From Physcomitrium patens (taxonomy: Eukaryota > Streptophyta > Bryopsida > Funariales > Funariaceae), in assembly GCF_000002425.4 (NCBI RefSeq), contig NC_037257.1, forward strand, positions 11,987,328 through 12,051,327: 64,000 nucleotides of DNA, in the 5' to 3' direction. The notes beneath the pieces were generated by a model that was not told where the DNA came from, searched no databases, and worked only from the letters and a program-made list of their open reading frames with translations. Both the position numbers and the translations under genes were made by a program. The stretch's first letter is position 1. Every line of letters starts with the position of its first letter. Positions 4,691 through 63,952 of this stretch are shown here, piece after piece.

Positions 4691-4934
4691 TTTCTAAAAG
4701 TATAACTAAGAGTATAATTAATCAAATAAAAAGTCATAAGTCTAGTATAATTAAACCTATATTTGTAGGTGCAAGAGCTTTCTTGCATGCTGCAAAAGAA
4801 GGATCACCTTGTGTCATTTATGCCACACGTATTTCTACTGATGGAAAGACTTCAAGTGGCATTCCAAGCCAATATTAAGATTTTAAAGATGTATTTGAGA
4901 AGACGAATGCGAATACTCTTCAAGAGCATCTTTC

Positions 4935-6498: not shown

Positions 6499-7773
6499 TT
6501 ATGTGTTCTTCAAGCTCATCATGACTTTCCAGTAGCAGGACATTTTGGGTACAATAAAACTTTGGAATTAATATCTAGAGACTTTTAATGGTCGCAAATG
6601 TGGAAAGCAGTCAAAGATTTTGTACAATTTTGTGATGTTTTCTCAAGATCAAAAACTCCTCGTCATTGACCTTACGGACTTCTTCAGCCATTATCCATTC
6701 CAAAACAACCATGGTCTTCTGTTTCTATGGATTTCATCATGAATCTTCCAATCTTACATTCTTATGACTCTATATTCATGATAGTAGATCATTTTACCAA
6801 GATGGCACATTTAGTACCATGTACAAAATCTATCTTAAGTGAAGAAACAGCTAAGCTCTTTCTTGACAATATCTATCGCTATCATGGATTATCCAAGGAT
6901 ATTATATTAGATAGAAAAACTCAATTTATATCAAGATTTTGGTAGATTCTTTTTAAGATTCTAAAAGTGGATATAAAACTATTTTGGACATTCTATCCTC
7001 AAATTGATGGACAAACGGAGCGTGCTAATCAAGTTTTGGAGTAGTATTTAAGATGTACCACTAACTACCTACAAGATGATTGAACAACTCTTTTGCCATT
7101 GGCAGAGTTTGCTTATAATAACATGATACATTCTTCTACAAAACAAACACCTTTCTTTACCAATTATGGTTATCATTCATAACTTGATACTTTTGACTTT
7201 TTAGAAGTTGATAATCCTGCTGCAAAAGATTTGGCAATTCATTTATCAGAGCTACATGCAACAATGAAGGCGTAGTTAAAAGAATCTCAAGAACAACAAA
7301 AGGTCAATACGGATGTCTATCGAAAGGGACAACCACCATTCCATATCGGTGATAAGGTATGGTCACTTTGTCGCAATATCAAGACCACTTGTCCTTCTGA
7401 TAAGTTGGACTATCAAAGGCTTGGACTATTTTCTATTTCTGTTCAAATCACTCCAGTTGCATATCGTTTATACCTATCGAAGTCAATGAAAATACATCCA
7501 ATATTCCACGTATCTCTTCTTGAACCATACAAGTTAGTGGACATACCAAGAAGAAGAAAAGCTCCACTTCTTCCTCTAGAAGTGGACAATAATGAAGAGT
7601 TTGAAGTAGAAGAAGTCTTAGATTCAAGGTGGCACCAAAATAAATTAAAATATCTTATCCATTAGCACGAATATGATATTAGTGAATGCACATGAGAGCC
7701 AATAAAGAATCTTGCAAATGCAACAAAGGTGGTGGAGAATTTTCATCGACGACATCCATCAAAATCAAGATGA
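6499..7773 (+). pseudogene. E2 integrase and chromodomain
   Basis: After a TGA in RNase H/linker sequence (6496-6498), the integrase zinc-binding region runs through about 6520-6670. The core starts at MDFIMNLP, with the first catalytic Asp in SMDFI (6727-6741) and IVDHFTKMAHL. The second acid reads ILDRKTQFIS at about 6905, Arg for Gly after the Asp. FYPQIDGQTERANQ-like sequence at 6992-7032 carries the catalytic Glu. The tail has DKLDYQRLGLF and HPIFHVSLLEPY. The chromodomain is FEVEEVLDSRW (about 7600-7632) and ends with a stop for Trp at 7663-7665. At least seven stops, nearly all at Gln or Trp positions, break it. Confidence 0.85.
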
Positions 7774-11013: not shown

Positions 11014-12480
11014 CATTTTCATACTATGTAAAGTCTGCTTAATAATGTACTAAACAATTGGATGTAGAAAAAAAAATGGAACTTGCAATAAGATGATCCT
11101 AATAATTATAATAGAATTTTAAACAAACTTCCATTAAATTATAAAAATGCTAAAAAATCTTTAATTGAATCCAAAATAAGATTCAAGAATTTATAAAAGA
11201 AATATAAAGAAATCATAAATTAATCGTGATAAAATATATATAATAAAAAAATCTTAAAAGAATATCAAAAATAGAAATCTTAATTGAATCTTAATCAAAT
11301 ATTTAATAAATCTTAATAAAATCCTTAATAAAATCCTAATAAAATCCTAAATCAATTTCAATTATACCTTAATGAAATCTCGAATTTTAAACAAATTTAA
11401 ATTAAATGTAAAAAAATATTAATCAAATTATAAAAAAAACTTGATTAAATCCTAAAAAGGTCTTAAAAAAATTCTAAGAAAAATCTAAATCTTAATCCTA
11501 GATCAAATGCCAATGAAATTCTAAATCCTATATAATCTTAAAAAAATTCTAAGTAAATTTTAATTAATTGCTATAGCTATTTGAAACCTCAATAAATATT
11601 AATTAAATAATAGATCTTAACTATAATTTTATCTAGACTTTAATCAAAAAGTAATTAATAAGATTATAAAATTTGAAAATAAACAGATATACCAATTGCA
11701 AGAAAAGCTTTCAAAATCTTTTGGTCATTAGCCTCCTTCTTTTTTTAACTTGAATATTGATTTTTCAACACGAATTTTTCTTTGCTAAATCTTTCAATAA
11801 ATCTAAAAATTTGATTATATTTAGATATTCAAATCTTAATTACTCTTATTAAATTTTGCTTCAATCCAATTAGTAAATATTTTTAGATCTTAAAATCATT
11901 TACTAATCCTAAATCTCAAATTTTTGAAACCATAATCCACCAAAATCCTCATACATTTCAATCTAACTACTTGATTGATCTTAAAGTTTTTACACACATT
12001 TACAATAAATACAACAACAAACTACTCAATTTTCTTTATATTCACACCATGAAACTTGAAAAATCTTAAAATTTATAAACTTATTTTTATTTTTCAAATT
12101 CTAAACTTACCAAATATATCATTAACTCTAAAAATTCTTTAAAATCTTAATATTAATTCAAATGACATAAAACCAACATTCAAAATCCTCCTTCAAGTCT
12201 ACTTTCAAATCTTGTCCTCTAATTTGTAAAAAAAATCTTGAAGTTTTTGTAGATATTTAGTTTTTTACCTCAAATCTAATTTTGATCTTAATTGGCAAGC
12301 AATCTTCTTTAGGTATCAATTCTTATCTTCTTGAGGTAACGTTTGCTAAAATTAATTTCTATTTATTTCTTAAATATACCTTTATTCTTTATTTTTTTTA
12401 ATCTACCTTATTTTTTCTTATTTATGGCTCTACAAAATAAATAGAATCTATTTTCACAAAAGACAATTCTAATACTAATA
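11014..12480 (+). repeat. LTR of the 'aatcctaaat' family, copy 1 (boundaries approximate)
   Basis: The start resembles TGTTGTCATATTAC copies at 37110 and 44504. The interior is dominated by imperfect short repeats of the form 'aatcctaa', 'aatcttaa'. The end shares 'tttatgg.ct.ta.aaa.taaatagaa' with copy 3. It splits a copia relic, RT on the left and RNase H on the right. Confidence 0.55.
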
Positions 12481-22197: not shown

Positions 22198-23082
22198 TGT
22201 TGTGATGTAATATGACTATATAGTGAAATTATAATCAAAATTGAATTTCTAATCAATATCTAATTATCTTAGTTCAATTATAATTTGAGGTGTCTAAACA
22301 TGGCTTTTATAAAAGCCTCTTAGGTTATTTTTTTATCTTAATAGTTAGTGGGTTGAAAGTTAGTTACTAATTTTACCTTCTAGGTTGTAGAGACTCTTCT
22401 ACTACCTTAGAAAGACCATAAATTGATAAAATCATGTTAGAAGAGATAAATAATTAGTATAGTTGATACTAGGATTAAGTTGAGAGTAGGGTTGGGCTAA
22501 AAAATCCTTAAGAGAGGTTAGATTGATACCCAAGGGTCGGTCATTTGTGAGATAAGGTCGAAATCAGACCTTTGGCCACAAAAACGATGGCCTAGGACAA
22601 AATAGGGATTCATTCAAAGATCAAAGGATAGGGTTGGAGAGCTACCTTGAAGTTCTTTTCAGAGGCATAAGAATTGTTTTTGGAGAGTTTTTGAGGACTT
22701 AGCAATTATTATTCAAAGTCAAGGTTTATATTGATGATTTGGATTTTATATAATATAATTAGGGCTAGAAATTTTGGCTAGTTTGTACAATTGATGTAAC
22801 ATCTATAGTTGAAAATTTTGCAATTGATATAACATCTACCGTTGTAAGTTACTGGCTGAGTAACATCAATGCACTTTTTGGAGGTTTTCTCACAATTTAT
22901 AAGTTGGATTGAGCTAAAAATTCTTGAGCATATAGAAGACTTACATTGACAATTGCATGCAAATTTTTACATCAAGTAGACGGTCAAATTGCATGTTACT
23001 GCTTGTTAAAGCTTATTGTTTAGAATTAGGACTTATAAGAAAAATCTAAATTGCTTAAATATGAAAGTAACAAGGTAATTGG
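22198..23082 (+). repeat. Truncated LTR, TGTCG-like family
   Basis: It begins TGTTGTGATGTAATATGAC and aligns with the reverse complement of 50291-49150, including the 'ttttataaaagc' and 'attgcttaaatatgaaagtaa' blocks. The last about 180 bases of the family are missing. It sits between the gag and integrase of one copia element, so a deletion removed its end together with the middle of the copia element. Confidence 0.7.
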
Positions 23083-24565: not shown

Positions 24566-25578
24566 CCAATTTAACATTTGAGTGAGCTTGATGCGAAGGG
24601 CCAATTTGATCCAATTACGGGGACATCCAATCCAAGTCTTGTTACGGGCTTCTTACCTAGTATGAGACCTGACTCGGTTGGGCAACCTAATGAGGTCCTG
24701 ATTATGGAGGCTTCAGTTCTATTTCAAGCTGTTCCATTCTCTATGCCATTTTGGAGTAATGTCCTTTCCATAGAAAGATCCTCTTTGAGGCGGGAATTCC
24801 ATAGAAGCATGGTCTGCTATTCCAAATCCGAGTCCAGGGCAGAAGAATAGGGGACCTCACGGAGTTAAATAAAAAGAGAGGAAAAGAAAGAGGGCATTTG
24901 GAGGAGATCGGAGATTTTGGGGTCAGAGAGTTAGCTTCAAGATCCTTCGAAAGGTGTATGACTTGGTTTCATAGGATTTGGGAGGACTTTGCAATTGTTG
25001 CTCAAAGTCAATGTTTGTATTGGTGAATTGGATTTTTTGCAATAAAGTTAAGGCTAGTACTCTTGACTGTTTTGTGAAATTGGAGAAACATCTGTAGTTG
25101 AAATTTTAGAGATGTCTAGATGGTTGAGTATGCCAAGTACATATGAAAATTTGTGTTAATGTAATGATACGGATAGAGGATATTTGATCATTAGTATAAA
25201 GAGGTATCAGAAGTTGGCATATTGGGATTGTTTAGGATTTTTGTAATATTTGGAGATCTATCAACTAGAATAAGGTGAATTTTAATGTAGTAAGTCGAGG
25301 ACTTAAAGGTGGAGCTGCACACAAGGTTTGAATGAGAATTGATAGTTGGAGAAGGAGAAATTGTGAGTAAGGATTTGTCATCAACTTTCTAGGCGGTGGT
25401 CAAGAGACATTTGTGTGGATTTACGACGTTTTCTTACAATTTTTAAGTTAGATTGGATTGAAACTTCTTTAGCATTTAGAAGATTTGTAAAGACAGTAGT
25501 GGTAGAAGTTTTACAACAATCAGATAATCAGATTGAGAATTACAGCTTGCCGAAGCTCACTATCTAAGATTAGGGTTT

Positions 25579-37109: not shown

Positions 37110-38840
37110 TGTTGTCATGTTACATGTGTTCTTGCTCAAGAATGCACTAGATATCTAATAGTAGAAGATAAATAGAAATGCAACAACAATCCTACAAAGT
37201 CTAATAGAATCTTAAAATAAACTTTGACTAATCCTTAATAATCCTGATAAAACTTTAATTAATTTAAAAAAAAATTAAAAGAAGTTACAAAAGAAACACA
37301 AAGAAGTCTTAAATTAATTTTAAAAAAAATAAAAAATAAATATTGAAGACATATAAAAATAAACCTTTAAAAAAATAATAATAATCTTACAAAAATATTA
37401 GAAATAGAAATTAAAAAAAAATAGAAAAAATCCAAAAAAATATTAAAAATAAAAATTTTAAATAAATCCTAATAAAATTTTAATTTAATCTTAATTAAAA
37501 CCCTCATGAACCTTAATCAAATCTTAGGTAAAATTTTAATTAAAATCCTAGTTAAAATCCTAATAATCCTTAAGCAAATTTCAGGTCAAATTCTAATTAA
37601 AACCATAATTTAAATCCTAATAAACCTTAATCATATCCTAGGTTGAATCCTAATAGAACTTTAATGAAATCTTAAATCTTAAACCAATATTAACAAATCT
37701 TAATAAAATCCTAAAAAAATCTTCAACAAATCTTAAACAAATCCTACACAAACCTTAATCAATTTCTAATCAAATCTTAATTAAATTCTAGTCATATCCT
37801 AATCAAATCTTAATCAAATTCAAAGAAAATTTAAATCAAATTCTAAATTCTAACCAAATTGTAGACAAATCTTAGGTCTTAATCAAATCCTAATCAAACC
37901 TTAGATTTTAAATAAATCCTAATCAATCCTTAGGCAACCTCTAAATCCTAAATAAATCTTGATAATCTTATAGTAAATTAAAAATTCAATAATTCATGAT
38001 TAAATCATTGATTTTGACTCAAAATTTATATACCTTACAACAACTAAGTAAGCAACAAGTATAATAAATTTGAAGAAGATTGCACATACCAATAGCAAGA
38101 AAACTCTCAAAATCTGTCAATTGTTGGCTGCCTTTTTTTTCCAACTTGAATGTTGATCTCTTAATACAAATTTTTCCTTATTGAATTATTTAATTACTCC
38201 ATAATTTGGAATATCTATAGATATTTTAGTCTAAATTTCTCTCACAAAATTTTATTTTAATCCAATTAGAAAATATTTTTAGAACTTAATATCATCCATT
38301 GATTCTAAACCTCAAATTTTCTAAAACCATAATCTACAAAAATCTTCATATTCTTCAATTTAACTACTTAATTGACCTTAAAATTTTTTACATGCATTAA
38401 TTAGAAGAAAAAAAATAAATTAACCAATTTTCACTTATAAATATGATATATAATTCACAAAATCCTAAAATTTATAAACCTATTTTTATTTTTTAAAATC
38501 TAAATCTACCAAATATATCATTAATTTTAAAAATTCTTCAAAATTTCGATATTAATTTAAATAACATGAAATAAACACTCAAAAATCTTTCTTCAAATTT
38601 TCCCTCAATTTCCATTTTTCAATTTGCAAAAAAATCCTAGAATTGCTGTAGATACATGATGTTGCACCTTTGGATTTGATTTCAATCTTGATTGGCAATT
38701 GATCTTTTCTAGATATTAATTCTTGTCTTGAGGTAATTTTTGCTAGAATCAACTCTTAACTTCTTCTTACATATGCTTATAACTTTTTTTCTTTTAATCT
38801 ACCTTTCTTATGCAAAATTGATCCATTTGACATGTATTTA
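37110..38840 (+). repeat. LTR of the 'aatcctaaat' family, copy 2
   Basis: It starts TGTTGTCATGTTACATGTG, matching copy 3 at 44504, then has more than 1 kb of imperfect 'aatcctaatcaaa' short repeats. It interrupts the RT of a minus-strand copia element. About 55 RT codons are missing around it. Confidence 0.65.
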
Positions 38841-48274: not shown

Positions 48275-48968
48275 ATCTTAGCTTTCTATATAAAATATAA
48301 AACACTTGCTTAGCTTCTTATGTAGAAGCAACAAACACTCTCTTTATTTTTCTTATAAAAACATAATTTCACCTTGTTCACTATTACGTGATATGGTATC
48401 AAGTCCCAAATCTTGTCGAATGTATATAATTTAGTTTAATTAGTGGTTTTTCATCTATTTAAAATTAATTTATTAATTGACTTATTTATGACAATTAAGA
48501 TTTGAATATTTAAGTAATTTTTTTTTCTTAATTTGACATTTTTATAAAGTCAATCCTTGTGAGTGATTTTAAAAGTGAAAAAACTTGTTGTAAAGATTTG
48601 CTTGGCTATGGTGTTTTAGCAATTTTAGTAAAGCTTTAAGATTTTGCTTATTTTTATACTTGTACTCTTTGATTTTTGCTTTGTAATTTAAAAGATAGCT
48701 TGATTTAATTTGATGTAGATTTCTAATCTTTCACTTAACAAGAATCTTTCATTTTCTTTAATTTGTGGTACAACAAGTTAAAATAAAGTAGATCAAAAAA
48801 ATAAAAATCAAATATATATATATATATATTTGGATTTTTTTTGCTATTTGATTTTGGTTTTGTTTTGCTATTGGATTTTAGTCAATACTATATTAGGCAC
48901 CAAAACCTAGCTTGATTGTACTACTACACTATTGCATATGGCCATATTAATCATTGCAATTACTATAT
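48275..48968. other. AT-rich stretch with an isolated primer-like site
   Basis: TGGTATCAAGTCCC at 48394-48407 resembles an initiator tRNA-Met primer site, hinting at the left end of another element. I see no gene. A short TA run lies at about 48813. Confidence 0.4.
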
Positions 48969-50291
48969 TATCATATTATGTGTTATCTCCTTTAGGAATG
49001 CATAGGGTACTTAGCTGTAGAAGGTGAGGTTGTGTTTCACAAACATCCAAAAATCCTAATAGGTTTCATCTATAAGAAAAGAATGTAATCCAAATTTCAA
49101 TTCAAAAGTACTAAAAATTACTCTTTTTAGTAGCCTCAATCACACATAAACCTCAATTACCTTATTACTTTCATATTTAAGCAATCTAGATTTTTCTTAT
49201 AAGCCTCAATTCTAATCAGTGAGCTTGAACAAACTGTAACTTCTAATCTGACCATCCACTTCATATAGAATTTTGAATATGATTGTCAATATAAGTCTTT
49301 TATATGCTTAAGAATTTTCAGCCCAATTCAACTTATAAATTGTGAGAAAACCTCCAAAAATTGCACTAATGTCACTCGGCCGCCAACTTGAAAAGTGAAG
49401 CAAAAATTTCTAGTAGTGATTTCTCCTTCTTCAACTATTAACATTGACTCAAAATTGGTATACATCTTGATCTTCAAGTCTTTCAAGACTGTGCCAAATT
49501 TCACCTTGATCTCACTAGTAGATCTTTAGATATCACAAAAATCCTAGCCAACCTCAAATTGCCAACTTCTGAAACCCTCTTGTCCTAAAAACTAGATATC
49601 TCTAAACCACACCATTAGATTATCACAAAATTTTTTATAATCTTAGTATACTCAATAATCCAAATAGTATCAAATTTTAAACTATAGATGTTACACCAAT
49701 TATACAAATTAGTAAAAATTGCTAGTTCTAATTATATTATATAAAATCCAAACCCCCAATACAAATCCTAATCTTGAATAATAATTTCCAAGTCTTCAAA
49801 AATCCTACCAAAACCACCCTTATGACTCTAAAAAGAGCTTAAAGCTAGCTCTCAAATTCTAATCTCCGATCTTCAAATGCTCCCCTAAATTACCCTAGGC
49901 GGTTGTTTTAGTGACCAAAGGTCTAATTTCAACCTTGTCTCACAAATGGTCGATCCTCAAGTATCAAGCTAATCTTTCTTAAGGATTTTTTAGCCCAATC
50001 CTACCTACAACTTGACCCTAGTATCAACCATATTAACCATTTACCTCTTCTATTCTGATTTTATCAATATATGGCCTTTCTAAGGCAGTAAAAGAGTTTC
50101 TATATCCTAGAAGGTAAAAATACTAACTAACTTTTATCTACTTGCTATTAAGACAAGGAAATAGGCTAATACGCTTTTATAAAAGTCTTATTAAAATATT
50201 TTGAATTCTTCTTGAACTAATATAATAGAGTATTAATTAAAAAATTATTTTTAGTCATATTTTTACCATATAATTGTGTCACAACATGACA
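48969..50291 (-). mobile_element. Solo LTR of the TGTCG family, minus strand
   Basis: The minus strand begins TGTCATGTTGTGACAC at 50291. Its end, TATCATATTATGTG on plus, aligns with the reverse complement of the LTR end at 61494-61508. It also contains GCTGTAGAAGGT like 61455. The flanks ATAT (48965-48968) and ATGT (50292-50295) differ by one transition, fitting a 4-bp target duplication. Confidence 0.75.
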
Positions 50292-50328: not shown

Positions 50329-50340
50329 TGGTATTAGAGT
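50329..50340 (+). promoter_or_regulatory. Primer-binding site of the methyltransferase gypsy element (likely)
   Basis: TGGTATTAGAGT is the initiator tRNA-Met site TGGTATCAGAGT with one C-to-T change. It lies 1.5 kb before gag on the same strand. The 5' LTR to its left is cut by the solo LTR. Confidence 0.5.
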
Positions 50341-51832
50341 CATCAAATAGAGTGCATCAAGGTAGGGTTGTAATACTATGCACAAGAAGAGCTCAAGTCA
50401 GAGCATTGAGTGATCACAAAATATAATAGTAGTGATGTATAGAAGAAGAACTTAGGTTGTGACATTGTTTAATTATTAGTAATGATCAAGGAATAAAAAT
50501 TTGTGAAGTAAGGCTATGTTATAGAAATTTCAACAATAGGATACTAACTCAACTTGCAAGATGGAGCAAGAAAATTGTGACATAGGATTTTAGTTACAAA
50601 AGTTGTACAATGCAATGATTTGATACAAATTATGACAAAAATATTATGACAATAGTTGGCAGCTAGTTGCAAGCGACAACAACTTGCGATATATCCTTAC
50701 AACTTAAGGCATCAAACTATGGCATTAAGTGAGTATGATCATAGGATTGCATTGTTACAAATCATCTTTGAAATTATAAGATCTATGGTAATAAAAATCT
50801 ACAATGAAAGATCCTTGTGATCATAAGATCTATAATAATAGGCTCTCTATAATCAAAAGATCTACAATGATAGGAATCTATGGCCATAGGTCTTATTGTA
50901 TAGTTGTGGGGGACATTAAAAAAAAAATAATAAAAAAAAATGATATTATCCAAAATTCTTAAGTATTGGATTTGGAAGCTCATACAAAGTGCATATGAAG
51001 CCCAATTTTTTTTTATTTTTGAGTCAATTTCATTTTAAAGAAGCCTAAAGAATTAATTGGCATAGTCAATTTTTAAAGTAGATGTCATTTGGAGCATTGA
51101 AGTAACATTATTAAATAGCATTTTCTTCCTTAGTGAATTTTTGATTTTCTTTTACTTCTCTACATTTTATTTTATTACAATTATCTTTTATTGTTATAAA
51201 TTTTATAATTTGTGATCATCAACTACACACATGTACCACTAACTTTGATTCATTGTAATTTTTGTATACATATTATTAAAGATGAGAATCTAGTATAGAT
51301 TTGTAGATTTTATTTTTGGTATCTTTTCCTAGTTGTAGATATTATTCTTGGAGGATTTTTATCATTATACCATTATATATTTATATTAGTTTAAATTGAT
51401 AGGTGTATTATAGAGATGAAGTTGGATTGATGGCTAATAATATTTTTCCGTTTGTAGATATATTGAATCTGTAATGATCTGGAGGTGATTACAAATGAAT
51501 TGAAAAGCTTAGTGATTTTACATGTGCAAGTTGTCCTTGTGGTCTTTAGATAGTTGCAAGTACCTAAATAGTCCTTTTATGATATATACTAGGAGTTGAT
51601 ATTATTAATCTCCTTGGATAGTAACTACACCAAAGACTTTAGACTAGAGGTGGATATTAACAAGGCTTTTTAGCCTGTTTCAGTGTTGGATACGACTTGG
51701 AGACTTAGAGTCTTAAGGATAGACACATTTTACTAGATAGAAGATAATCTTTATAATATGGTGAGAGATAGATTCTCAAAAAGACCTAAAGATATTTCTT
51801 TGCCAAATTAAAAATTCAAATTTCAAATATAG
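50341..51832 (+). other. Leader region before gag
   Basis: No recognised protein. Imperfect units of the type 'aagatctacaatgatagg' recur at about 50778-50895. Confidence 0.4.
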
Positions 51833-53250
51833 ATGAAAGAGAAGCATCATATGTCTCTAACTTTCAATGAGTGGTATGCCTTTGAACTCTTATCACAATA
51901 TTTGGAGTACAAGGTACTTCAAATCTATGAAAAATCAAGTGAAGAATACTCATTTGAGTTACGTGAAGTGGAGCATTATTGGAAGGCATGCATAGAGCTT
52001 ATTTCAACTCTTAAGAAGGATGCTATCTCAAGCTTCATGCCTACAATGAAAGAAGAAGATTCAATCTAAGAAAAAGTTGATATTTCTTTAGAAGATCTCA
52101 AAAAAAAAAATAAGTATCTACTTCTTTAACTACCACTCCAATTAGTTTGTCTCACATGACTTAAGCAATGAAGGCAATTTATCTGCAATAGAAGAGCCAT
52201 TATCATTTGAACCTCTTCAAATATTTTTTAAGTATTTAAAACATAAATATGGAGGTTTTAGGCATGATCAAATGTAACACATTCAAGACTTTTGTAATAA
52301 ATAAGAAGATATTTTGTATACCATATATATTTATTTGGCTTAATTTGCAATAGAATTAAAAAGTATGTTTGTTTAGAGTCAACTTGTTAAGAATTTCTTA
52401 TTTAAAATTGACAAAAAATTCTTAAATTTAGTCAAATTAAGAATTATTTTTAAGTATGATGATAAGGTCACATTGGCAAAAGAATTTGTTGAAGTTAAAA
52501 AATGCAATGAGGCACTTTGTCAACACAATACTATTAACATGATAGTTTAGATGATAGATGTATCTAAGCCCAAGAATATTGCAACTACTACAAGTAACTT
52601 GACAGAAATTCAAATTAAAAAGACTATGCATTGTTGGAGGTGTAGTAAATTTGATGACATCAAGAATGATTTCAATTAATCCAATAAGAAAAAAAACCTT
52701 ACTTATAGAGAAGTCTAAGCCAAAATCTGAGATGGCTAAAATCGTAGATAAATCTTAAAAGAAGTAATTGACATATTTTTATTGTGGTAAGCTTAACCAC
52801 AATGAAGATAATTTCTTCATATTACATTTGTACAAATAGCCTACTTTAGATAAGGAAAAGGCTTTAAAAACTAAAATTACTAAATTAGAAAAAAAAAAAT
52901 CAATAGTGCAGCTTTATTAGGCCAAATCATCAAATCTCATGTGACTTTTAGAAGTGGAACAAGTTCTTTTTTACTAGAAAATTATATGTTTTGTGTATTA
53001 AGACAAATAATAGTTACAATAGCTATTTATACTTAAACAACAGCTAAAAATATGACATCTATAAGAAGTAAGATATTAGAATCTTTGTCTAGTAGTTCAA
53101 ACAGTCATAGAAATGCTAATACTCATGTACGATTACTTTTATCTTTTGGCCTTGTAGATGTTAAATTTACAACAAAGCCTTCTATATCAGCTACAATACA
53201 AGATGAAAATATTAGTATTAAAAACATGAAATATACTTTGGATTAAAAAG
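51833..53250 (+). pseudogene. Gag of the methyltransferase gypsy element
   Basis: The first open part (51833-52069) reads LTFNEWYAFELLSQYLEYKV and a charged helical stretch ending TMKEEDSI. Further blocks include KYGGFRHDQM-like sequence at about 52240. Two damaged zinc knuckles are CWRCSKFDDIKNDF (about 52634) and YFYCGKLNHNEDN (about 52775). An open 64-codon block at 53052-53246 is in another frame. Gag would form particles and package RNA. Confidence 0.6.
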
Positions 53251-53580
53251 TATTGAATATACTTATATTTTTTAGTGTTGACTTGTTGACTTCAAAATTT
53301 AAACCAACAAAGATCTTTTAATTAGTTGGTAAAATATTGGAAGGCAAAATACATATGTCATCATTAGAAGAGGTTCAAGTAGTAACAAAGCTTTTAATAT
53401 AAGAAGATTTAGCTAAGTTACAAGAAAAACTTGGAACTAAAGATCTTAATTTTTTAAGAAAGTTACTTGAAGGCCACAAACATAAATCATTTAAGTAAAG
53501 TGCCATTGCCTACAAGAGTAGCATGTCTATCTGATGTTGCAGCTAAATCTTTTTGGAAATATCAAAATTTTTATCAAAGA

Positions 53581-54330
53581 ATTATGCGGCTAGTTAATAA
53601 CAACAACATGCTGGTTATTAATTAAACTAGTAGCAATACCACTCATGCTATATTTTTGCATGTTATGTTGAATTTCAAGGCTTAGTTAGTTATGATTGGT
53701 AAATGTTTTGCTTAAGAATTAGATCTTACTCTTATAGACTCGGAACCTTGTCTTTTTACCATTATCACTTTAGTAGAAGATGTAGAGCAAACTATTAATT
53801 ATATATATAGACAACCTTTATAATTAATATTTTATATTAGATTTGGTCCACTTTATTCATACTTATTTCTAAAGTGTACAATGACTAGTGCCACCAACTA
53901 TGATATTTTAGTAGGTCAATAGATCCTTCATTCATTTGATTTTGGCTTAGATAATTGGATTAAAGAAGCATGGATTCAATTAAGATTGACCATTGATGAT
54001 GAAAGGAAAGAATTCATTCTAGTCATATTTATAGCCATTATTGTAATTATGTTAGTAGAAACTTTATTTGATTGTAATACATTGGTATTTGATTAGCTTT
54101 GTAGAGTGATTCTATTAGAAGAAACATTAGCCTTTATATAATATTCTATAAGACCAACTTATCTATCATCTTTAGTAGTTCATGCAAAATACAAAAAATA
54201 TCCATCTCTTCTTTCGAAAATACATGTACAATGTAAAGAGATTGTATCTTCAATGTATATATTGAAGATACCAAAATCTTCTTTTTTATCTACATTTGCT
54301 CAACCTATTCATTAGCATCTATCAAATAAG
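53581..54330 (+). pseudogene. Retropepsin-like protease and linker
   Basis: This is in the same frame as the methyltransferase. The protease core reads VMIGKCFA (53690-53713), LDLTLIDSEPCLFTI, and ends ATNYDILVGQ at about 53893-53922, a typical retropepsin C-terminal ('YDILVG') signature. I do not see the catalytic D-T/S-G triad, which would lie before VMIG in a stretch interrupted by stops. A linker of about 130 codons, with KKYPSLLSKIHVQCKEIVSS, leads into the methyltransferase. Stops are at Gln-type codons (53653-ish, 53713, 53821, 53923). Confidence 0.6.
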
Positions 54331-55293
54331 GATATTACCTTTGTAGAACTCTTTGTAGGCATTGATATTGGTTTAGCAATAGTATTATAGGCTAGGCTTA
54401 TTATTCAAGAGTATATTTATGTGGATACTAGAATTACATCTAATCAAGCACCTTGACATTATCTCCAAAGATTGTTGGCTATATATTTCAAACAACTACA
54501 ACCTCTTACTATTCTTGGTTATTTTAGCAAACTTTATAATAATGTCATTTTTATTAGTCATGAGGATTTGAGGAGATTAGACTACATCAACTTAATGATT
54601 GTTAGATGGCCTTATCAAGGTCATTTGTATGATGAAATAGATCACAAGTTAGATGATCTTCAATCCAATTTATTTGCAGATTTGATATAGCTCACATAGT
54701 GGTGATTTATACATCAAACTATAGTACTTAGGTATATTTTTTAAAATTTATCACCATTAGATGACATTTAAATACCAGTATTGAAGAATTATTAATATAT
54801 CAATCAATCCCTTCATCCTCCAACCTTTGTGAATATTACGGCTTTGGACTCCTATATCCATCAACCTCATTTGATTTGAATCAATCTCATATTATTTCAC
54901 GTGCTTATAAAAGTATTTTTTAATATTAAATGACTTTTTGGATGCCATGTGGATAATATCTTAGATGATAATTAAATTTCTTTGATTTTCACTAAGATTG
55001 ATGAATCTCTTCTTGCCTTGGTTAATAAGATGGAAACACCTCATGGTGTATTTCCTATATTTGTGATATTTCTAGCATCTTTTGTATTTTGAATACATAG
55101 ATTTGTTATGATTTGGGATGTTAATTTACAAACCTATGAAGAACCTTATGCCAATGAAAGGAAGCATGCTATGGGCTTTTTAATTGGCACCACAATTACT
55201 TATAATCTTAATGAAGAACAATATTGTTTTTTCTAAGGCTAGGCTATGGACCTCAATACTTTGATATGGATTTTTGGAATATATCTTATTGTT
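54331..55293 (+). pseudogene. Retrotransposon-encoded C5 DNA methyltransferase domain
   Basis: The enzyme would transfer methyl from S-adenosylmethionine to cytosine C5. Motif I is FVELFVGIDIGLAIVL (54340-54387; family 'LF.G.G.G'). EYIYVD follows, motif II-like. DLRRLDYINLMIVRWPYQGH (54565-54624) holds motif IV, where the catalytic Cys of P-C-Q reads Tyr. DHKLDDLQSNLFADLI resembles the 'GL.D.RS.LF' block. Motif VI (ENV) reads stop-N-L at 54742. FVNITALDSYIHQP resembles motif VIII. Motif X is GxAMDLNTLIW (55237-55270). Order I to X is canonical, not the DRM rearrangement. Fifteen in-frame stops, no frameshift. Position between protease and RT shows it was part of Gag-Pol. Confidence 0.85.
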
Positions 55294-56600
55294 TAGAATC
55301 TTTTTTATGACCATATTAGTATTCAAAGGTTAGTGAACAATGGTCAAGGAGTAGTCGATCCTAAATTTACTAAAGTTAAAAAATATAAGTCATTTCTTTG
55401 CTTATAAAGGTATGCAATAGATGAGCTACAAGCTCAAGATGTCTTTGAAATTTTAGCTAAATATTTAGAAAAAATAAATGCTCAAGAAACTTTTTCATGG
55501 AATTTCTTTTGAAAGACACTCCATGTTCTATCAATATTTCTAATTCACACAAATATCATAGTAATAAAGCTCTTTATTTAATTAAAAATGAGGTTGTTAG
55601 AAGCATAGGAATTATTTCTTTAAAAAATTAGTAATTAAAAGCAGTGCCAGCATATAGTGGTGCTTTATTGGTGAAAAAAGAGACCATAGAGTTTGATGAT
55701 TGGCTATTAGAGTTAGGACTACATCTTATTTATGTTGAAGCACAAAAGATATAAGCTATTATCTGCTCATATTACAATTATTTTATCTTTAGTCTTAAAA
55801 ATCTTAAAGGTTATAAAGACAAATCTATTTACATTCAATTAGAAGGTAATCATACAATCTTTTAACAACCTTACAAACTTCGTGCGTGAAAAAAAACTGG
55901 TGTATAAATCCATTGCTAAGAATTTTTGGCTATAAACTTGATTGAGCTTTCTAATGGTGAATATGCTTGTTTTACAATCATGCCTTCAAAAAAAGATGTT
56001 TTTAGTAATTAGATAGCGAAATAGATGTATAGAAACTATCATCTAATTAATTGTAAGATTAAATTTAATTAATATCTTATATTAATGTAAGAAGAATTAT
56101 TTGATATAATAGGATTTATCCTAAATATTCAAAACTTTGGATTTAAGATCTTGTTATTACCAATTATTATTACTTATTGAAAGTCGAGTAAAGATAACAT
56201 TTTAGAGAGTTAATTAAAATGACAAAGATCAATTCTATCATTAGAAGATCCTTCCATTTGGCCTTAAGAATGTATTAATTGAGTTCCAATAAAAGATGAA
56301 ATAAGTTTTATTTGGATTATTATTTGCTAGATATTACATTGATGATATCATTTTTAGTAGCATCTTACAAGATTATATGAAAGATTTATAAGTAGTGTTT
56401 GAGTAATTATGGCAATAGAGATGGTACTTACATCATGAAAAGTATAAATTCTTCTATGAAAGATTATTATGCTTAAATTACATGATTATTCCAAGAAATC
56501 TTAGCATATAATAAGCAAAAGTAGATGCCTTACACAAAATCTCAATACCAAATGATGTTTCATGATTTTGGGGCTTTTTTAGCATTGACAAATTACTACT
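55294..56600 (+). pseudogene. Reverse transcriptase of the methyltransferase element
   Basis: A connector with YAIDELQAQDVFEILAKYLE (about 55417-55477) continues the methyltransferase frame. A frameshift follows near 55512. RT blocks are DLRSCYYQLLL (about 56147), FYHxKILPFGLKNVLIEFQ (about 56235-56290) and ARYYIDDIIFSS (56325-56360) with an intact YIDD at 56335-56346. KVDALHKISIPNDVS follows at about 56520. Substitutions match the gypsy RT pattern 'DLRSGYHQ' and 'LPFGLKNAP..FQ'. It would copy RNA to cDNA. Confidence 0.85.
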
Positions 56601-57200
56601 AAAGGTTTGTTAAAAACTTTAGTATTATTGCTTAATATTTACCTATTCTCAGAGATAAAGATCAACTATGAATTTGGAATTATAAGTAATAATATGCATC
56701 CAAATCATTGAAGAAAAAGTTGGACTCAATTCTAGTGCTTCAACATCCAAATGCCAATAGATCTTTTCAATTATATATAGATTAGAGTACAATAGAATTG
56801 AGAACAATCTTGACACAAAAAGATGATGTAAAATGAAAATATGTCATTGTATTTGCTTCTAAAAGTAATGATAATATAGAGTCAAATTACTTATCTTATG
56901 AAGGAGAAGCTTTGGCAATAGTTTGGACCATTACTCACTTTCAACCTTACTTATATGGTCATTATTTTATATTGGTAATTGACCATTAATTATTAAAGTG
57001 GTTTATAGAATTAGCCAACTTATTAAAAAGCTTTAAAGATGGATTTAGTTAATTTAAGAATATAACTTTGAGGTTGTGCATCAGGTAAGCATTATCAATT
57101 TGGATGCCAATGGAATTTTTCATAATCCATGTCCTTCAAAAGAAGACTTAATCAAAGCTCAATAATATGGAAATTGTGATAAAAAAGTAATTTTTGGATG
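56601..57200 (+). pseudogene. RNase H of the methyltransferase element
   Basis: SLKKKLDSILVLQHPNANRS (about 56703) and FQLYIDxSTIELRTILTQKD contain the first catalytic Asp ('LHTDWS.LGLGAVL.Q'). YVIVFASKS and NYLSYEGEALAIVWTITHFQ then PYLYG (about 56888-56960) and VIDHxLLKW match the family end 'TDH.PL.WL'. DANG near 57100 replaces the 'DADGLSR' signature. Confidence 0.8.
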
Positions 57201-57419
57201 GCATGTAGCCACATACTTAACTTTAATATCAGATTTTACAACCATGGTTCTTGACCATAATTTAGGTGAAGAATTAAATAAGAATTAAGTAATTAGTAAT
57301 GTGTTGAAAGATCTTTTAGTCTTTTTCAAACTTCAACAAGGGAAATTTCTTTCAACTATCTCTAATATAGAAAGAGATAGAATTAATCACTAAATAATAA
57401 GTTTTTATTGAGAAAACTA

Positions 57420-58590
57420 TTTATAATTTTATTTATGGCCTAATAGAATTAGGTGCATAATGTCAAGGCTAAATCAAAGAGCTTCTTTAATACACTAAGT
57501 ATATAAAGAACTTGGATATTTTGAAGTATTCAAGACATATTTTATATTGTACAATAAATATTGATAGAGTGGTATGTATTAACAAGTGGCTATACATGTT
57601 TCTTGGTGTGAAGTAAGTGATTGAATTAGATTAAGCTTTATCACTTTATTACTTCAATTGAAGTCATTGCCAATTATAAGTTTATATTATTATTAGTCTT
57701 TGGACTTTGTTGGACTACTTGTTGTTATGTCATATAGAGTTAAATATGTATTAGTGATAGTATAACATTTTAATAAGTGAATTAAACTTGTGGCTTTATT
57801 ACAAAATTCTTCAAAATTAGCAGCTATGGCTTTTTTTGATAAAATATTAGCACGTTTTGGAATACCTATTGAAGTCTTAATATATCAAAGAAGAAATTTT
57901 ATTGAAATTTTTGAAGATTTATATGTTAAAGCTTTTATAGATTATTATACTACATCTAGAAATCATCTTGTAGCAGATAGCATAATTGAGGGGTTTGTTT
58001 AGATTATCAAACATGGATTACAAAAGTATGGATTACTTCATGAAAACCATTGTAATTGGAATTTGATATTATTATAGATTGCAATAGATTATTGCTTTAA
58101 TAGATAAGCATCTTAGGCATCTTATAGTCCTTATCAATTATTATATAGATAGAAGTCAATTCTATCTAACTTAATATGTAAAAAGTTAGTTTCAATTATA
58201 GTTCTATATGATATTAATATTTGAGATTAATGTCTATATGAACAAGTTGAGTTCTTTAAATAAGCCATGCATATATCTATAAAAAATTTATTTATTATTC
58301 AATATCACAAGACTTTGTAAAATGCTTATATTTATAGTAGAGCTTATCAATCCTAATTACAAAGATTTTTTTATAAAGATTATATGTATTTATAATGTGA
58401 GGTGCCAAGAATACTTGATATTAAGAGAAGACATAGAATTCTACATGTAAAGAATGTCTTGTCCAGTGGTATTTTGTTGTTATAAGGCAAAGTTAGATAA
58501 GAGTGTCAGGAGCATTCAAAGAATTATATTCGTTGTTATCTTCTTATTGATGACTTTATACATCCTAAATTGATAATTAAGCCAATTTAT
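57420..58590 (+). pseudogene. Integrase of the methyltransferase element
   Basis: The zinc-binding region has YKELGYFEVFKTYFILYNKY and SWCEVSD (about 57500-57620). The core has SLDFVGLLVVMS with the first catalytic Asp (about 57694). The open part (57790-58002) follows. It contains FGIPIEVLIYQRRNFI, where the second acidic position ('DQG') reads Tyr-Gln-Arg, and NHLVADSIIEGFV, where the Glu region is changed. KYGLLHENHCNWNLIL and SYSPYQLLY match gypsy integrase tails. A GPY/F-like module reads PRILDIKRRHRILHVKNVLS then SGILLL (58405-58480). Catalytically dead. Confidence 0.8.
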
Positions 58591-58601
58591 CTTTTTTTTT
58601 T

Positions 58602-58815
58602 ATATGTGGTGAGAAGAAAGATATTGTTACCATACTTTTATGTGATCAATGCCAACGTGGGTAGTATATAGCATGTTTGATACTACTCTTTTTGACTCTT
58701 CCATTAAAATATTAAATTTTTCTTTGTTGTAATAAGTTTTTTAGCCATGCCTCATCTTTTGATAAAAATTGAAGATTTCTTGATATGTGATTAATGCCAA
58801 TGTGGGTGACATATG
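58602..58815 (+). pseudogene. PHD-finger module downstream of integrase
   Basis: Frame 58602 onward reads ICGEKKDIVTILLCDQCQRG-stop-YIAC, matching the PHD pattern C-x-x-C...LLCD.C.RGWH..C. The Trp codon is TAG and His reads Tyr. It is one base out of frame with the integrase tail, the shift lying in a T run at 58592-58601. A second copy of the central piece, LICD.CQCG.HMV, lies at 58790-58815. PHD fingers read histone H3 tails or methylation and would serve targeting. Confidence 0.7.
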
Positions 58816-58912
58816 GTGTAATCGTCGTTTGACTCGGACTCAAAATACCAAGATATTTGATCAGCATAGGTGGGTTCGATCTCGGGGAAAGACTCGTTGT
58901 ATGAATTGGATA
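58816..58912 (+). other. End of the methyltransferase element's coding region
   Basis: A short stretch of more moderate base composition (SSFDSDSKYQDI in the PHD-copy frame) is cut by the minus-strand LTR that begins at 58913. No 3' LTR of this element is recognisable. Confidence 0.35.
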
Positions 58913-60162: not shown

Positions 60163-61508
60163 TGTCGTGTTGTAACACGAGTATACAGTGAAAATAAAAA
60201 AAAATAAAAAAGAAGGGGAATTTTATTAATATTCGGTTACCTCGAATATTGGGAGCATCGACCAACTCCAGCACAAATACTAAGTGGTCAGGTTCAGTCA
60301 CCCCGTTACAGTCAGCCGAGGCATACTGAAATGCTCCATTCGATTCTAATAACGGGAGTTAGCAGGATGAGAAGGACCAATTCACACGACGGGTTTGAAG
60401 AGCCAATTGGATCCAATTTCGAGAATCCAATCCGGGTCCTCTTACCCAATATGAGACCTGTATTGGTGGGGCAACCCAATGCAGTCTAGTTATGGGAAAA
60501 TCCAGGTCTTACTACGAACCTTAGCCAGTCTGACGCGAAGACCAATTTGACCCAATTACGCGAGCATCCAGGTTACTATGGGCATCTTATCCAATATGGG
60601 ACCTGAATTGGTCGGGCGACTCAATGTGGTCCCGATTACGGGGTTTCGATTCTGTTTCGGGCTGTCCTGTTCTCTGTGCCATTTCAGGGAACATTATTTA
60701 CGGTAAATGGATCTCTTAAAGGTAAAAACGGAGGAGAAGGCCTTGATGACGTGAGCCAATTTCGGATCTAAGCTCTGACGGCGGGAGCCAATTCCGGATC
60801 TAAGATAGAAGATTGAAGAAATTCAGAGGATAAGGTTAGGGGAGAATATAGTTTTAGGGAGGGGGGTTTTTTTTCTCTGGGAATCGGAGGGGAGCTAGTT
60901 TTCAAGCTTTTGCAAGGTTACCAGTTCGGTTTCATTGGAGGGTTTTGAAGATCAAGGGAATTAGAGAGAGGAGCTTCATGCTTCGGGTCGGGGAAGGAAA
61001 GATAGAGAATTTGGATTTTTCTTCTTCGTGGAGTTTTGGGAAGACTGAGGCAATCGCTGCTGAAGTCAGTGTTGTAATGGTGAATCGGGATTTTTAAATG
61101 AAGTGGGTTTGAATACTCTTGACTGTTTTGTGAAATCGAGTTACGTCTGTGATTGAAGGATTAAAAGGGTGTCTATAGGATTGAGTATGCGGAGTGAATG
61201 AAATTTATTGGGTTAATCTAACAAGACAGTCAGTGGATACAAGATCGTAAGTACAAAGCAGTATTGAAGGTTAACAGTTTGGGTTGTACGGGGTTCTCTG
61301 TAACGTCTAGAGACCTACCGGCTGGGGCAAAAAGGACTTCGACAAGCAGTCGAAGAGCACCCGTATAGATTTACTGTACATTGTTGCAGTCGTTTATATT
61401 CCAGCAGTCAAAAACTGATAGACTGCGTGACTATCGGCGAATCTCCATACTACCTTCTACAGCCAGACGCCCGGCGCGTTCTCGAGCAGGAAAGCACGTA
61501 ATACGACA
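60163..61508 (+). repeat. 5' LTR of the right-hand gypsy element
   Basis: 1346 bases, with TGTCGTG...TACGACA ends. It interrupts the coiled-coil element. An imperfect tandem duplication of about 150 bp lies at about 60388-60650 ('ccaatt..acccaatta', 'ccaatatg.gacctg.attggt'). Copies or relatives are at 936-2186, 22198-23082, 23980-25899 and 48969-50291. The sequence is GC-richer and better kept than the others, so this is probably the youngest insertion. Confidence 0.85.
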
Positions 61509-61532: not shown

Positions 61533-61579
61533 CTTGAGGTAGAAGGTATTGGATTTTGGTTGATTTTATCTTTATTTTT

Positions 61580-63952
61580 ATGGAAAACGAAAATAAAAAT
61601 TTTGAAGGATTTTTGGGAGAAGTTTCTTGTGGGGAGTCTTCTAAAGGACAAGGTATGCACATGGATCCGTCTATTGCTAGTTTGTTTCAAGCCTTCTCAT
61701 TGTCAATGCAGCAACAGCAAAGCAATGATCGGAAGGAAGCTTTGGCAACCAAAGCATTGCAAGCAGTGGTCAATAAAATTGATCAATTTGATGGGAGGAA
61801 TATTTCAAGGTATTTAAGATGTTATGTTCGTGAAATGGAATTAAATCGGGTTTCTGAGAAGAAAATGGTTGCACTATTTGGACTTGCCACGATACCGGAG
61901 ATAAGGGACCACATTACATCAATTACGGATCGTTGTGGGAATTCATGGGAGGATTTTTCACATGCATTGAAAGACGAATATTTCTTGAAAGATGCTGATC
62001 GCATTATTAAGAAGCTGTTTCTGGGATGGATTGAACGGCCCAATAAGAATTTGTAAGCAACAGAGCTACTAAGGGAATTTAAGAGGCAGTACTCTCAATT
62101 ATCGAAGGTAGAAAAATTGACATTGGAGCCAAACAAAGTTGATCTATTTCTTCAAGCTGCTGATGGAGAATTGCAAGAGAAATTAGAACCCCTTCTTCAA
62201 GACAAAGAAGAAGATGAAGGATTGACAACAAAGTGGAAGAAAGTTGAAGATGTGGTGGGGTTGCTTACAAAAAAAGAAAGGAGGAAGGATAGGAGTAATA
62301 TTCCGAAAACAGTACAAGCACCCAAAGCTCCAGTACGTACAACACCACCGACAATGCCTACAGTTCAACCTTCGACATCCTTGTCAAAGAAAGCAGATAT
62401 GGGTATGGAAGAAATTATACAAGGAATGTGAGATCTTCAAATCAAGTTGGCAAGACTTGAAGAAAATACTTCTATAAATAATTCGAAGAATGTTTCAAAA
62501 CAAGGATATGTACAAAGATGCATTTGGTGTGATGATGCTTCACACACTAGAAAAGATTGCAATGAATTTAATAATATGATACGGCAGGGAATTATTTGCT
62601 GGAAAGATGGGAAGATAGCATTGAAAGATAGGGAGGATCTTCTTCAAACCAATTTTGGCAAGGGAGGAATGAGAGCATTAGTTCAAGACTACTTAAAAGA
62701 GCATGAAACAGTAGTACGAGAAAGTGCAAGTTATGGTGCTAGAGTAGATGATGAAATTGGTGGAAGTACGGAAACTAGTGAGTTTTGGGCTTCTGCCGTT
62801 TCTACAATGCAAGAAGGGAAATTACCTTGAGAAGCGTTATTGAAAACTGCAGCTACAATACGAGGAAGAACAGGTTGAGAGGATCCTGTTGAGTCTCTTT
62901 CAGTTCATGCATATATTGCTAAGAGCCAACATGAAGCTTTGATGGAAGAAAAAAGACGAGGAAATTTTGATGATACTAGAGAAGGAAATTCTTTTAAGAG
63001 GCAAACTCGAGGAGACAAGGCTCGGGAGGCAGCTTCATAAGAATTACCTGTAAAGGATACCTCAGCATCATTGGGAGAAAAAACAACGGAGACAAAAGAT
63101 AAGGGCAAATCAATTGCTTATAAGCTACTTTCTGACATTGAAGCGGCAACAAATTTGAAAGGGGTGTTGGAAGAACGTATATTAAACGCTAAGGTGGAAT
63201 TCACATTGAAAGAAGTCTTGGGAATTGCAAAGAAGGAGTTTCATGATGTTATCATTGACAGCATTAAGCGAAAGAGGCAATTAATGAGCGAAACTGGAAT
63301 GAGTCATGCTATTGATGCAAGAATATGTAGAGATCAAGAAGAGGTTGATATTAGTTACAAGCAACCAACAAATGAAAAGAATGGGTATAATCAGCGAGTA
63401 CGTTTCGAAGATTCTAGTGACAAGGAAATGGAAACTTTGAGCCATTATACTCGAAAGCATTGGGCAAGGGCAACTACTGAGGTATTGGTGAAGGTAGGAG
63501 ATATAGAAGAATCAATAGTTGCCTTGGTGGACCATGGTTCTGAAATAAATCTCATGTCTAAAGATCTTTATAAGAAGCAAAAATGGCCAATTGATATGGA
63601 ACATGGATGGGCAATACGAGCAGCTAATAACACACGAGGCGAATTATATGGAGCTTGTCCAGATGTCAAAATTCGGATTGGGAATGTTGCTACGGAGCAA
63701 CATTTCTTCGTTCAAGATACAACGTCTTATCCGTTGATTTTAGGACAACCTTATATCACGGCAACACGGATGGAAACAAAGGTACTTGACGATGGTTCTG
63801 CTTATGCAAGGGTACGGAGCGAAGATGGGAGGAAAGCTGTACAATTTCTAACAGTACCTCCTAACCATGAACGAAATCGAGATAGGTTGAGGGAGAAACC
63901 ATTGCCAAAGATTGTTGAAGGATTTAAGGATTTTGGGGAGGTACCACTGTAA
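61580..63952 (+). pseudogene. Gag-protease of the right-hand gypsy element
   Basis: One uninterrupted frame, ATG at 61580 (MENENKNFEGF), is broken by six stops: 62054, 62429, 62828, 62876, 63038, 63950. Each is explained by one C-to-T or G-to-A change in a Gln, Arg or Trp codon. Gag has KIDQFDGRNISRYLRCYVRE and FSHALKDEYF. A zinc knuckle CIWCDDASHTRKDC lies at 62519-62560. The protease at 63470-63790 reads ALVDHGSEINLMS (Asp-His-Gly at 63530-63538, where Asp-Thr/Ser-Gly is usual) and ends PLILGQPYITATR. Pol continues beyond the window. With no indels the copy looks young. Confidence 0.85.

Follow-up and report, generated by a model that had tools for sequence, protein, structure and literature searches.

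Introduction

Retroelements that encode a DNA methyltransferase of their own are puzzling, because methylation silences them. The closest described system is the Gypsy-Dnmt3 element of Klebsormidium nitens, in which the enzyme lies in the Pol open reading frame (ORF) and is under purifying selection (de Mendoza et al., 2018; PMC5890265, used here and below as far as its text was accessible). Methylation of cDNA has been proposed for the DIRS elements of Symbiodinium (PMC5890265), and the accessible part of a paper from 2025 places DNMT3 enzymes in retrotransposons of the Copia and DIRS types in streptophytes and dinoflagellates, with no species named (PMC12344493). According to a review, land plants such as tracheophytes lack elements of this kind (PMC6338049). 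In the accessible parts, a survey of long terminal repeat (LTR) elements of green plants distinguishes eight domain types, with neither a methyltransferase nor a PHD finger among them (PMC6317226), and a paper on the transposable elements of Physcomitrium patens mentions neither of the two (PMC7466625).

Here we describe an element of this kind in the moss P. patens. The stretch analysed, called the window in the following, comprises 64,000 nucleotides (C5:11987328-12051327). A sequence-only reading had recognised in it a Ty3/gypsy retrotransposon with a C5 DNA methyltransferase (MT) and a PHD finger and had pointed to similar retroelements in dinoflagellates and charophyte algae, which do exist in Symbiodinium and K. 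nitens (PMC5890265); the MT can now be specified as being of the DNMT3 type. Judged by homology, the region from 51.6 to 58.75 kb of the window is a decayed Ty3/gypsy copy with a DNMT3-type MT and a PHD finger. We consider it likely that this copy belongs to a decayed two-ORF family, in which the MT would have been made at the level of Gag ahead of a leaky stop codon and would have methylated the element's own cDNA, the PHD finger would have tethered the integrase, and methylation would finally have driven the decay.

Open relatives of the element, one of them with both methyltransferase and PHD finger

The window copy alone left the MT unproven, since no Pfam DNA_methylase match was obtained on its stop-masked pieces, and the proof comes from relatives. 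The PHD match on the window (E 0.051; 43-residue cut, E 0.0038) stayed below the gathering score in both cases, and a chance-like mCpol match appeared at 0.069, whereas relatives pass the Pfam check for both domains. Solved structures in the PDB gave 0 matches to the window MT. With the 334-residue MT piece alone, a protein search in which only proteins of similar length were compared returned 0 of 875 candidates; with this piece in a longer frame, the search found four proteins (P0121 to P0124) in data from JGI, ENA and NCBI, which are 1252-1451 residues long and show 37-48% identity. Each of them contains PF00145 (E 2.9e-12 to 1.5e-11) and an Asp_protease_2 match that is weak and just below the cut-off, and the zinc knuckle of P0124 lies above it. 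P0121 aligns along 51833-55542 (E 4e-180) and P0122 from 51614 onwards (E 3e-168), which shows that in the relatives a single ORF encodes gag, protease and MT.

Both ORFs are open in a contig of 9285 bases (CADCWO010000201.1, hereafter L003), which was found in a scan of genome contigs and is filed in the cyanobacterial bin AVDCRST_MAG81, where AVDCRST presumably stands for desert crust. Despite this bin L003 is plainly a eukaryotic LTR-type element, and its source might be an alga such as Klebsormidium. ORF1 (PF00145, E 6.8e-12) ends at 3491, and ORF2, with 1047 residues, continues in the same frame with matches to RVT_1 (E 4.3e-31), RNase H (E 1.8e-38), integrase (rve, E 1.2e-13) and, as the last one, PHD (E 4.3e-10), which covers all 47 positions of the PF00628 profile with the Cys/His pattern present. 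The best match of ORF2 among solved structures is Ty3 Gag-Pol (E 6.7e-100), and ORF2 aligns in order to 55641-58754 of the window, PHD finger included. Taken over the window and L003 ORF2, the order protease, reverse transcriptase (RT), RNase H and integrase is that of Ty3/gypsy elements. That MT and PHD finger stand in two adjacent open frames of L003 is a strong argument against nesting and bears out the earlier claim of a gypsy element with both domains. The ends of L003 overlap exactly by 127 bases, and the start of ORF1 sits at the other end of the contig; L003 is therefore circular or collapsed from many copies and shows a single non-coding block. No relative was found in scans of viral contigs; judged by their ORFs, L001 and L002 from these scans seem unrelated.

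The motifs named in the sequence-only reading, FVELFVGIDIG, WPYQGH, DLQSNLF and AMDLN, are all present in frame +1, as is, after the integrase at about 58.6 kb, the PHD-type LLCDQCQRG..AC. They are not due to chance: on 50-60 kb the L003 MT reaches 244 bits, where 50 shuffles of two-base blocks give no more than 22.3, and the L003 PHD finger reaches 50.8 bits, where as many shuffles give no more than 21.6. Homology to the relatives spans 51614-58754 (tblastn), with the following features:

51614..52123, forward strand: ORF1, N-terminal part of gag, decayed, frame +2 (tblastn with P0122 residues 17-181 and P0123 residues 17-188)
52164..52694, forward strand: ORF1, second part of gag and remnant of the first zinc knuckle (HCWRC, at about 52626; tblastn with P0121 residues 109-285, 48% identity; zf-CCHC in P0124, E 1.6e-4)
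52681..53441, forward strand: ORF1, remnant of the second zinc knuckle and linker, frames +1 and +3 (tblastn with P0121 residues 281-359 and 350-533)
53518..54138, forward strand: ORF1, aspartic protease, frame +1 (47% identity to the protease region of L003 in tblastn)
54334..55314, forward strand: ORF1, DNMT3-type C5 MT in the protease frame, 15 stops (tblastn with the L003 MT, 44% identity, E 1e-76)
55629..55637, forward strand: ORF1/ORF2 junction TAG TAA TTA, with the in-frame TAG at 55629-55631
55641..56632, forward strand: ORF2, RT, frames +3, +1 and +2 (tblastn with L003 ORF2)
56696..57138, forward strand: ORF2, RNase H (Pfam RT_RNaseH_2 on the window itself, E 9.8e-23; tblastn with L003 ORF2)
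57388..58269, forward strand: ORF2, integrase, frame +1 (tblastn with the L003 integrase, 51% identity, E 1e-79)
58270..58584, forward strand: ORF2, C-terminal part of the integrase and linker to the PHD finger (tblastn with L003 ORF2 residues 455-985 on 56992-58584)
58599..58754, forward strand: ORF2, C-terminal PHD finger, decayed, frame +3 (tblastn with L003 ORF2 residues 991-1042, 48%)
58784..58858, forward strand: second, partial PHD core (its DNA alignment scores 45, above the maximum of 38 from 500 shuffles)

In the MT segment of the window copy 15 stops fall on 327 aligned codons, and motif IV reads WPYQ instead of the WPCQ of the relatives, the catalytic Cys being replaced by Tyr. As a protein, the second PHD core reaches 21.2 bits, inside the range of the shuffles. 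A second PHD finger as a trait of the family is unsupported: none of 25 other loci has a clear one, a further stretch being seen in four of them, of which three are short, weak and located elsewhere and the fourth is a split match. With no counterpart in L003 either, the duplicate is local to the window copy.

The junction between the two ORFs

The sequence-only reading had the MT, placed between protease and RT, share a frame with the protease as part of the element polyprotein. The shared frame holds, as P0121 residues 535-1233 and 53443-55542 form a single alignment in frame +1 with 9 gap positions; a polyprotein frame of protease, MT and RT does not, because the TAG at 55629-55631 separates MT and RT. 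The MT closes ORF1, and an in-frame TAG precedes the RT in all six junctions examined (L057 excluded). It reads AAG TAG CAA TCA in L003, TAG CAA TTA in the moss loci L058 and L060, TAG TAA TTA in L059 as in the window, and TAG TAG TTA in L061 (printed frame shifted by one base). The three undecayed junctions with CAA (L003, L058 and L060) fit CARYYA, which is the readthrough motif of tobamoviruses, and TAG CAA TTA/TCA thus looks like the context of a leaky stop. Readthrough in a plant retroelement is known from SIRE1 of soybean, for which our literature search found no paper. If readthrough amounted to a few per cent, the MT would be made at the level of Gag and the integrase with the PHD finger would be rare; the order of the ORFs and the presumed leaky stop predict precisely this imbalance.

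Type of the methyltransferase and of the PHD finger

Among solved structures, the MT of P0121 is nearest to DNMT3A/B (E 2.5e-8), then to HhaI (7.7e-5) and DRM (0.017-0.04), and the names DNMT1 and CMT do not occur among the 50 matches up to E 10. A profile of the five open MTs matches a profile of 15 DNMT3 proteins (from animals and unnamed sources) with a probability of 99.2 and E 2.6e-19 over 257 columns. The two are homologous over motifs I-X, and the order of the motifs is unrearranged as in DNMT3. By these comparisons the MT is of the DNMT3 type, with DRM, DNMT1/CMT and bacterial enzymes more distant from it. PCQ and ENV are invariant in all five open sequences, with MT identities of 60-89%. 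The mean pairwise identity of the five open ORF1 sequences, some of which are cut at the N-terminus, is 72.6% for the MT, 71.9% for the protease, 63.5% for gag and 43-51% for linkers and tail. The MT is thus as conserved as the protease and more so than gag, as is expected if catalysis matters. Of the 20 MT loci of the moss genome compared, six have retained the catalytic Cys.

P. patens itself has genes for MET, CMT, DNMT3a/b and DRM1/2, and methylation mutants exist, according to the accessible text of PMC6453930. Assigned by eye, two of the host loci L004-L009 show DRM order and two are DNMT3; a CMT with a chromodomain and a MET-like fragment make up the rest. A tree of 140 columns and 20 rows, with partial exons and long branches and after removal of P0066 (no motif I match), joins the five retroelement MTs in one group (100/98) beside the host DNMT3 (85/93). 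With a hidden Markov model of the retroelement MTs, the host DNMT3 pieces score lowest, below DRM and other DNMT3s, and we read the relationship as involving no recent capture of a host DNMT3 by the element.

The PHD finger has its best solved relatives in CHD4, Cph2, PHF12, UHRF1, an MLL3 homologue, KMT2D, KDM5A/B, ubi-d4 and PHF21A, followed by DPF3 and ATXR5. Many of these proteins read the unmodified H3 tail. In readers of H3K4me3, the residue two positions before the His of WHMAC is Trp, and the element has Gly there. With both points taken together, a reader of the H3K4me0 type on the integrase is favoured. No chromodomain is among the Pfam matches to E 0.1 in L003 ORF2, and the PHD finger occupies its place.

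An old family in the moss genome

The genome searched comprises 470,438,890 bases in 101 contigs. For the MT query 122 of 416 candidates and for the query of integrase end plus PHD finger 150 of 593 were scored, and all counts are therefore lower bounds. At least 123 MT matches were obtained, each with at least one internal stop, and the window copy ranks third among them; the listed ones spread over 27 of the 101 contigs. By eye at least three pairs are pieces of one copy, which leaves about 120 places. Of at least 151 integrase/PHD matches 150 were used, and 85 of these extend through the PHD finger. For 38 of the 123 listed MT matches an integrase/PHD match (37 different ones) lies 1.5-5 kb downstream on the same strand. 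The two controls, pairs in reversed order and pairs on the other strand, gave 0 and 0, and the reading of one element was not refuted by this test for nesting. An MT match without a partner proves nothing, as the lists are lower bounds. Intact copies, for which the sequence-only reading had proposed a search, are absent among the listed MT matches, every one of which contains stops.

Five long stretches were fetched, of which L060 runs from gag to the PHD finger, L061 from the zinc knuckle and L058 from the MT; these three were already counted among the pairs. The PHD finger is seen in all 20 best integrase/PHD loci, L016 and L019 being cut short. Between any two of the 20 best MT loci there are 0.040-0.130 transversions per site (mean 0.072 over all 190 pairs), and their distance to L003 is 0.170-0.210. 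We read this narrow range, compared with the larger distance to L003, as one old radiation of the family. A gag query, with 150 of 12,327 candidates scored, was dominated by another gypsy family and was given up as a way to family members.

Decay and methylation

Of the 657 mismatches between the window copy and P0121, C>T/G>A changes alone can account for 404 and the reverse changes for 15. At 24 of the 39 stops P0121 has Q, R or W, which together form 12% of the residues. The corresponding raw counts are 363 of 733 and 26 (24 of 40 stops) against P0123, 375 of 508 and 11 (50 of 59 stops) against L003 ORF2, and 2154 of 3657 and 102 over the 20 MT loci. The loss of CG and CWG is a more specific sign of decay than this excess. 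The element contains 17 CG against 129 expected from base composition and 25 CWG against 126 expected from dinucleotide shuffles (sd 9.3). Old sequence elsewhere in the window is likewise poor in CG and CWG, as at 10-20 kb (CWG 33 against 129 expected) and 36-46 kb (32 against 147); the depletion is weaker at 3.0-8.3 kb (58 against 136) and least at 61.5-64 kb (40 against 66). Transposons of P. patens are methylated to about 80% in CG and in CHG, according to the accessible part of PMC9994747, and methylation may well be the cause of the mutation spectrum.

Proposed mechanism and rival explanations

In the mechanism that we propose, ORF1 would yield gag, zinc knuckles, protease and the DNMT3-type MT, and a minority of ribosomes would pass the amber stop, presumed leaky from its context, into ORF2 with RT, RNase H, integrase and PHD finger. 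The MT, made at the level of Gag, would be packed with the genome, the PHD finger would be present on few integrase molecules, and the MT would methylate the cDNA of the element itself, either inside the particle or in the pre-integration complex. The PHD finger would tether the integrase to nucleosomes with unmodified H3K4, replacing the chromodomain of chromoviruses, and new copies would arrive methylated and in quiet chromatin. Later, in this host, methylation in CG and CHG would have turned C into T until every scored match was broken. A bolder form of the idea, which we hold to be unlikely, is that the logic of DNMT3 was re-created in a retrotransposon, with a de novo MT at the level of Gag, an H3K4me0 reader on the integrase, a leaky stop like that of tobamoviruses and stealth copies. 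If true, stealth would explain how the family survived under strong CG and CHG silencing, and the same methylation would later have erased it by deamination.

That a host MT pseudogene and a host PHD gene came to lie beside an unrelated gypsy copy by nesting or chance has next to no probability. The locus is crowded with overlapping old insertions and the window MT by itself has no Pfam match, but gag, protease and MT share one frame in four single proteins, L003 unites MT and PHD finger in one element, and the ordered pairs in the genome number 38 against none in either control. A separate start of ORF2 instead of readthrough is also quite improbable. Our literature search for a case of readthrough in retroelements found none; in L003, ORF2 continues directly beyond the TAG without a change of frame, and no Met occurs in it before residue 117, by which point the alignment to the RT of Ty3, starting at residue 79, is already under way. 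To this come the TAG in six of six junctions and the fit to CARYYA of the three with CAA.

The roles of the two added domains are more doubtful. The MT may have acted on host chromatin or target sites, or may no longer have been catalytic, serving to bind nucleic acid or as part of the particle, which is a genuine possibility that we do not favour. In the profile comparison the alignment to DNMT3 is poor between motifs VIII and X, but the invariant catalytic motifs in all five open sequences argue for kept catalysis, and the position in ORF1 would place the MT in the particle. To a similar degree it is conceivable, if doubtful, that the PHD finger had no role in steering integration, binding Gag, DNA or a non-histone partner or reading another mark, since some PHD fingers bind no histone. 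Against this stand the many among its nearest solved relatives that read the unmodified H3 tail and its position at the end of the integrase, like that of the chromodomains in chromoviruses.

Several observations weigh against the mechanism that we prefer, or against parts of it. MT and PHD finger occur together in a single open contig (L003), and 65 of the 150 listed integrase/PHD matches end before the PHD finger, among them that of the window copy, where a frame change is responsible. L057 and L059, picked as strong PHD matches, have no MT in the part fetched, and a sister family without MT is possible. No LTR pair was found in the window by searches for repeats, blastn and local alignment, nothing significant being seen in direct orientation; the limits 50329 and 58912 of the sequence-only reading are thus unconfirmed. 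An inverted match at 49.5-49.8 kb was rejected as LTR, being part of another repeat. The MT tree is weak, and the structure model of the MT is poor (pLDDT 45.8), too poor for use, so that little weight is given to DNMT3A as its first Foldseek match (E 5.8e-8). The C>T excess consists of raw counts in AT-rich sequence with no correction for composition, and a mild shortage of CWG is seen in L003 as well (208 against 272 expected). Finally, the DNMT of the Klebsormidium Gypsy element gave no methylation in yeast, a result that its authors regard as inconclusive (PMC5890265, accessible part).

The pairing of a writer with a reader makes the question why a retroelement should carry a methyltransferase testable, with about 120 places in a model moss for which methylation mutants exist (PMC6453930) and an open relative on a public contig.

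Neighbouring elements in the window

About 3 kb upstream of ORF1, 44 bases at 48527-48570 share 82% identity with part of the non-coding block of L003 (about 7228-7271; E 4.8e-6) and may be an LTR remnant. A repeat at 49154-50272 (inverted), 22217-23081, 24905-25561 and 61035-61264, with 68-83% identity, probably represents the LTRs of another element, 5' of the MT element. Chromovirus-like gypsy sequence with a chromodomain-like tail (..ERTWEPAENL) occupies 2-619 and 4879-7053, with RT and integrase in longer open frames. At 61538-63949 a younger gypsy-like element begins, with open gag and protease-like frames, 39% GC and weaker loss of CG and CWG, and runs to the end of the window. A direct repeat of 1.1 kb (11274-12409 and 37666-38805; 71% identity) lies in very AT-rich sequence.

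Comparison with known systems

The family has a counterpart in each of several described systems. Like the plant chromoviruses, including Tcn1 and RLG1 of P. patens, it is Ty3/gypsy with a chromatin reader at the end of the integrase; their reader is a chromodomain and no MT is mentioned in the accessible parts of the sources, whereas the reader here is a PHD finger (PMC6317226, PMC7466625). It shares the lack of a chromodomain, and the host, with Phygy, the non-chromovirus gypsy clade of Physcomitrella, which is set apart by its description as rather short elements (PMC6317226, accessible part). SymbioDIRS-Dnmt3 and SymbioLINE-Dnmt of Symbiodinium also carry a DNMT, and that of the DIRS elements methylates CG de novo in yeast; they are DIRS and LINE elements, not Ty3/gypsy, and according to the paper the capture was independent (PMC5890265). 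Closest is KnitGypsy-Dnmt3, also a Ty3/gypsy element of a streptophyte with a DNMT3-type MT of unrearranged motifs; there the DNMT is in the Pol polyprotein ORF, the repeats are DIRS-like and the main text makes no mention of a PHD finger (PMC5890265). In the moss family the MT ends the gag-protease ORF before the amber stop, and ORF2 ends in the PHD finger. This separation rests on the published description, in which the naming of the ORFs may differ.

In a literature search that covered few subscription papers, no gypsy element with a PHD finger and no DNMT-bearing retroelement of a land plant was found, and within the literature searched this bears out the suggestion that the architecture had perhaps not been described from this genome before. 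As far as our searches reach, the family is thus of the kind known as Gypsy-Dnmt3 from Klebsormidium and is the first DNMT-bearing retroelement of a land plant, with the host, the PHD finger, the position of the MT in ORF1 and the presumed leaky stop being new. A parallel outside of retroelements is provided by animal DNMT3A/B, where the ADD domain reads unmodified H3K4 and reader and writer are parts of one protein, whereas in the moss family they are encoded by different ORFs of a mobile element.

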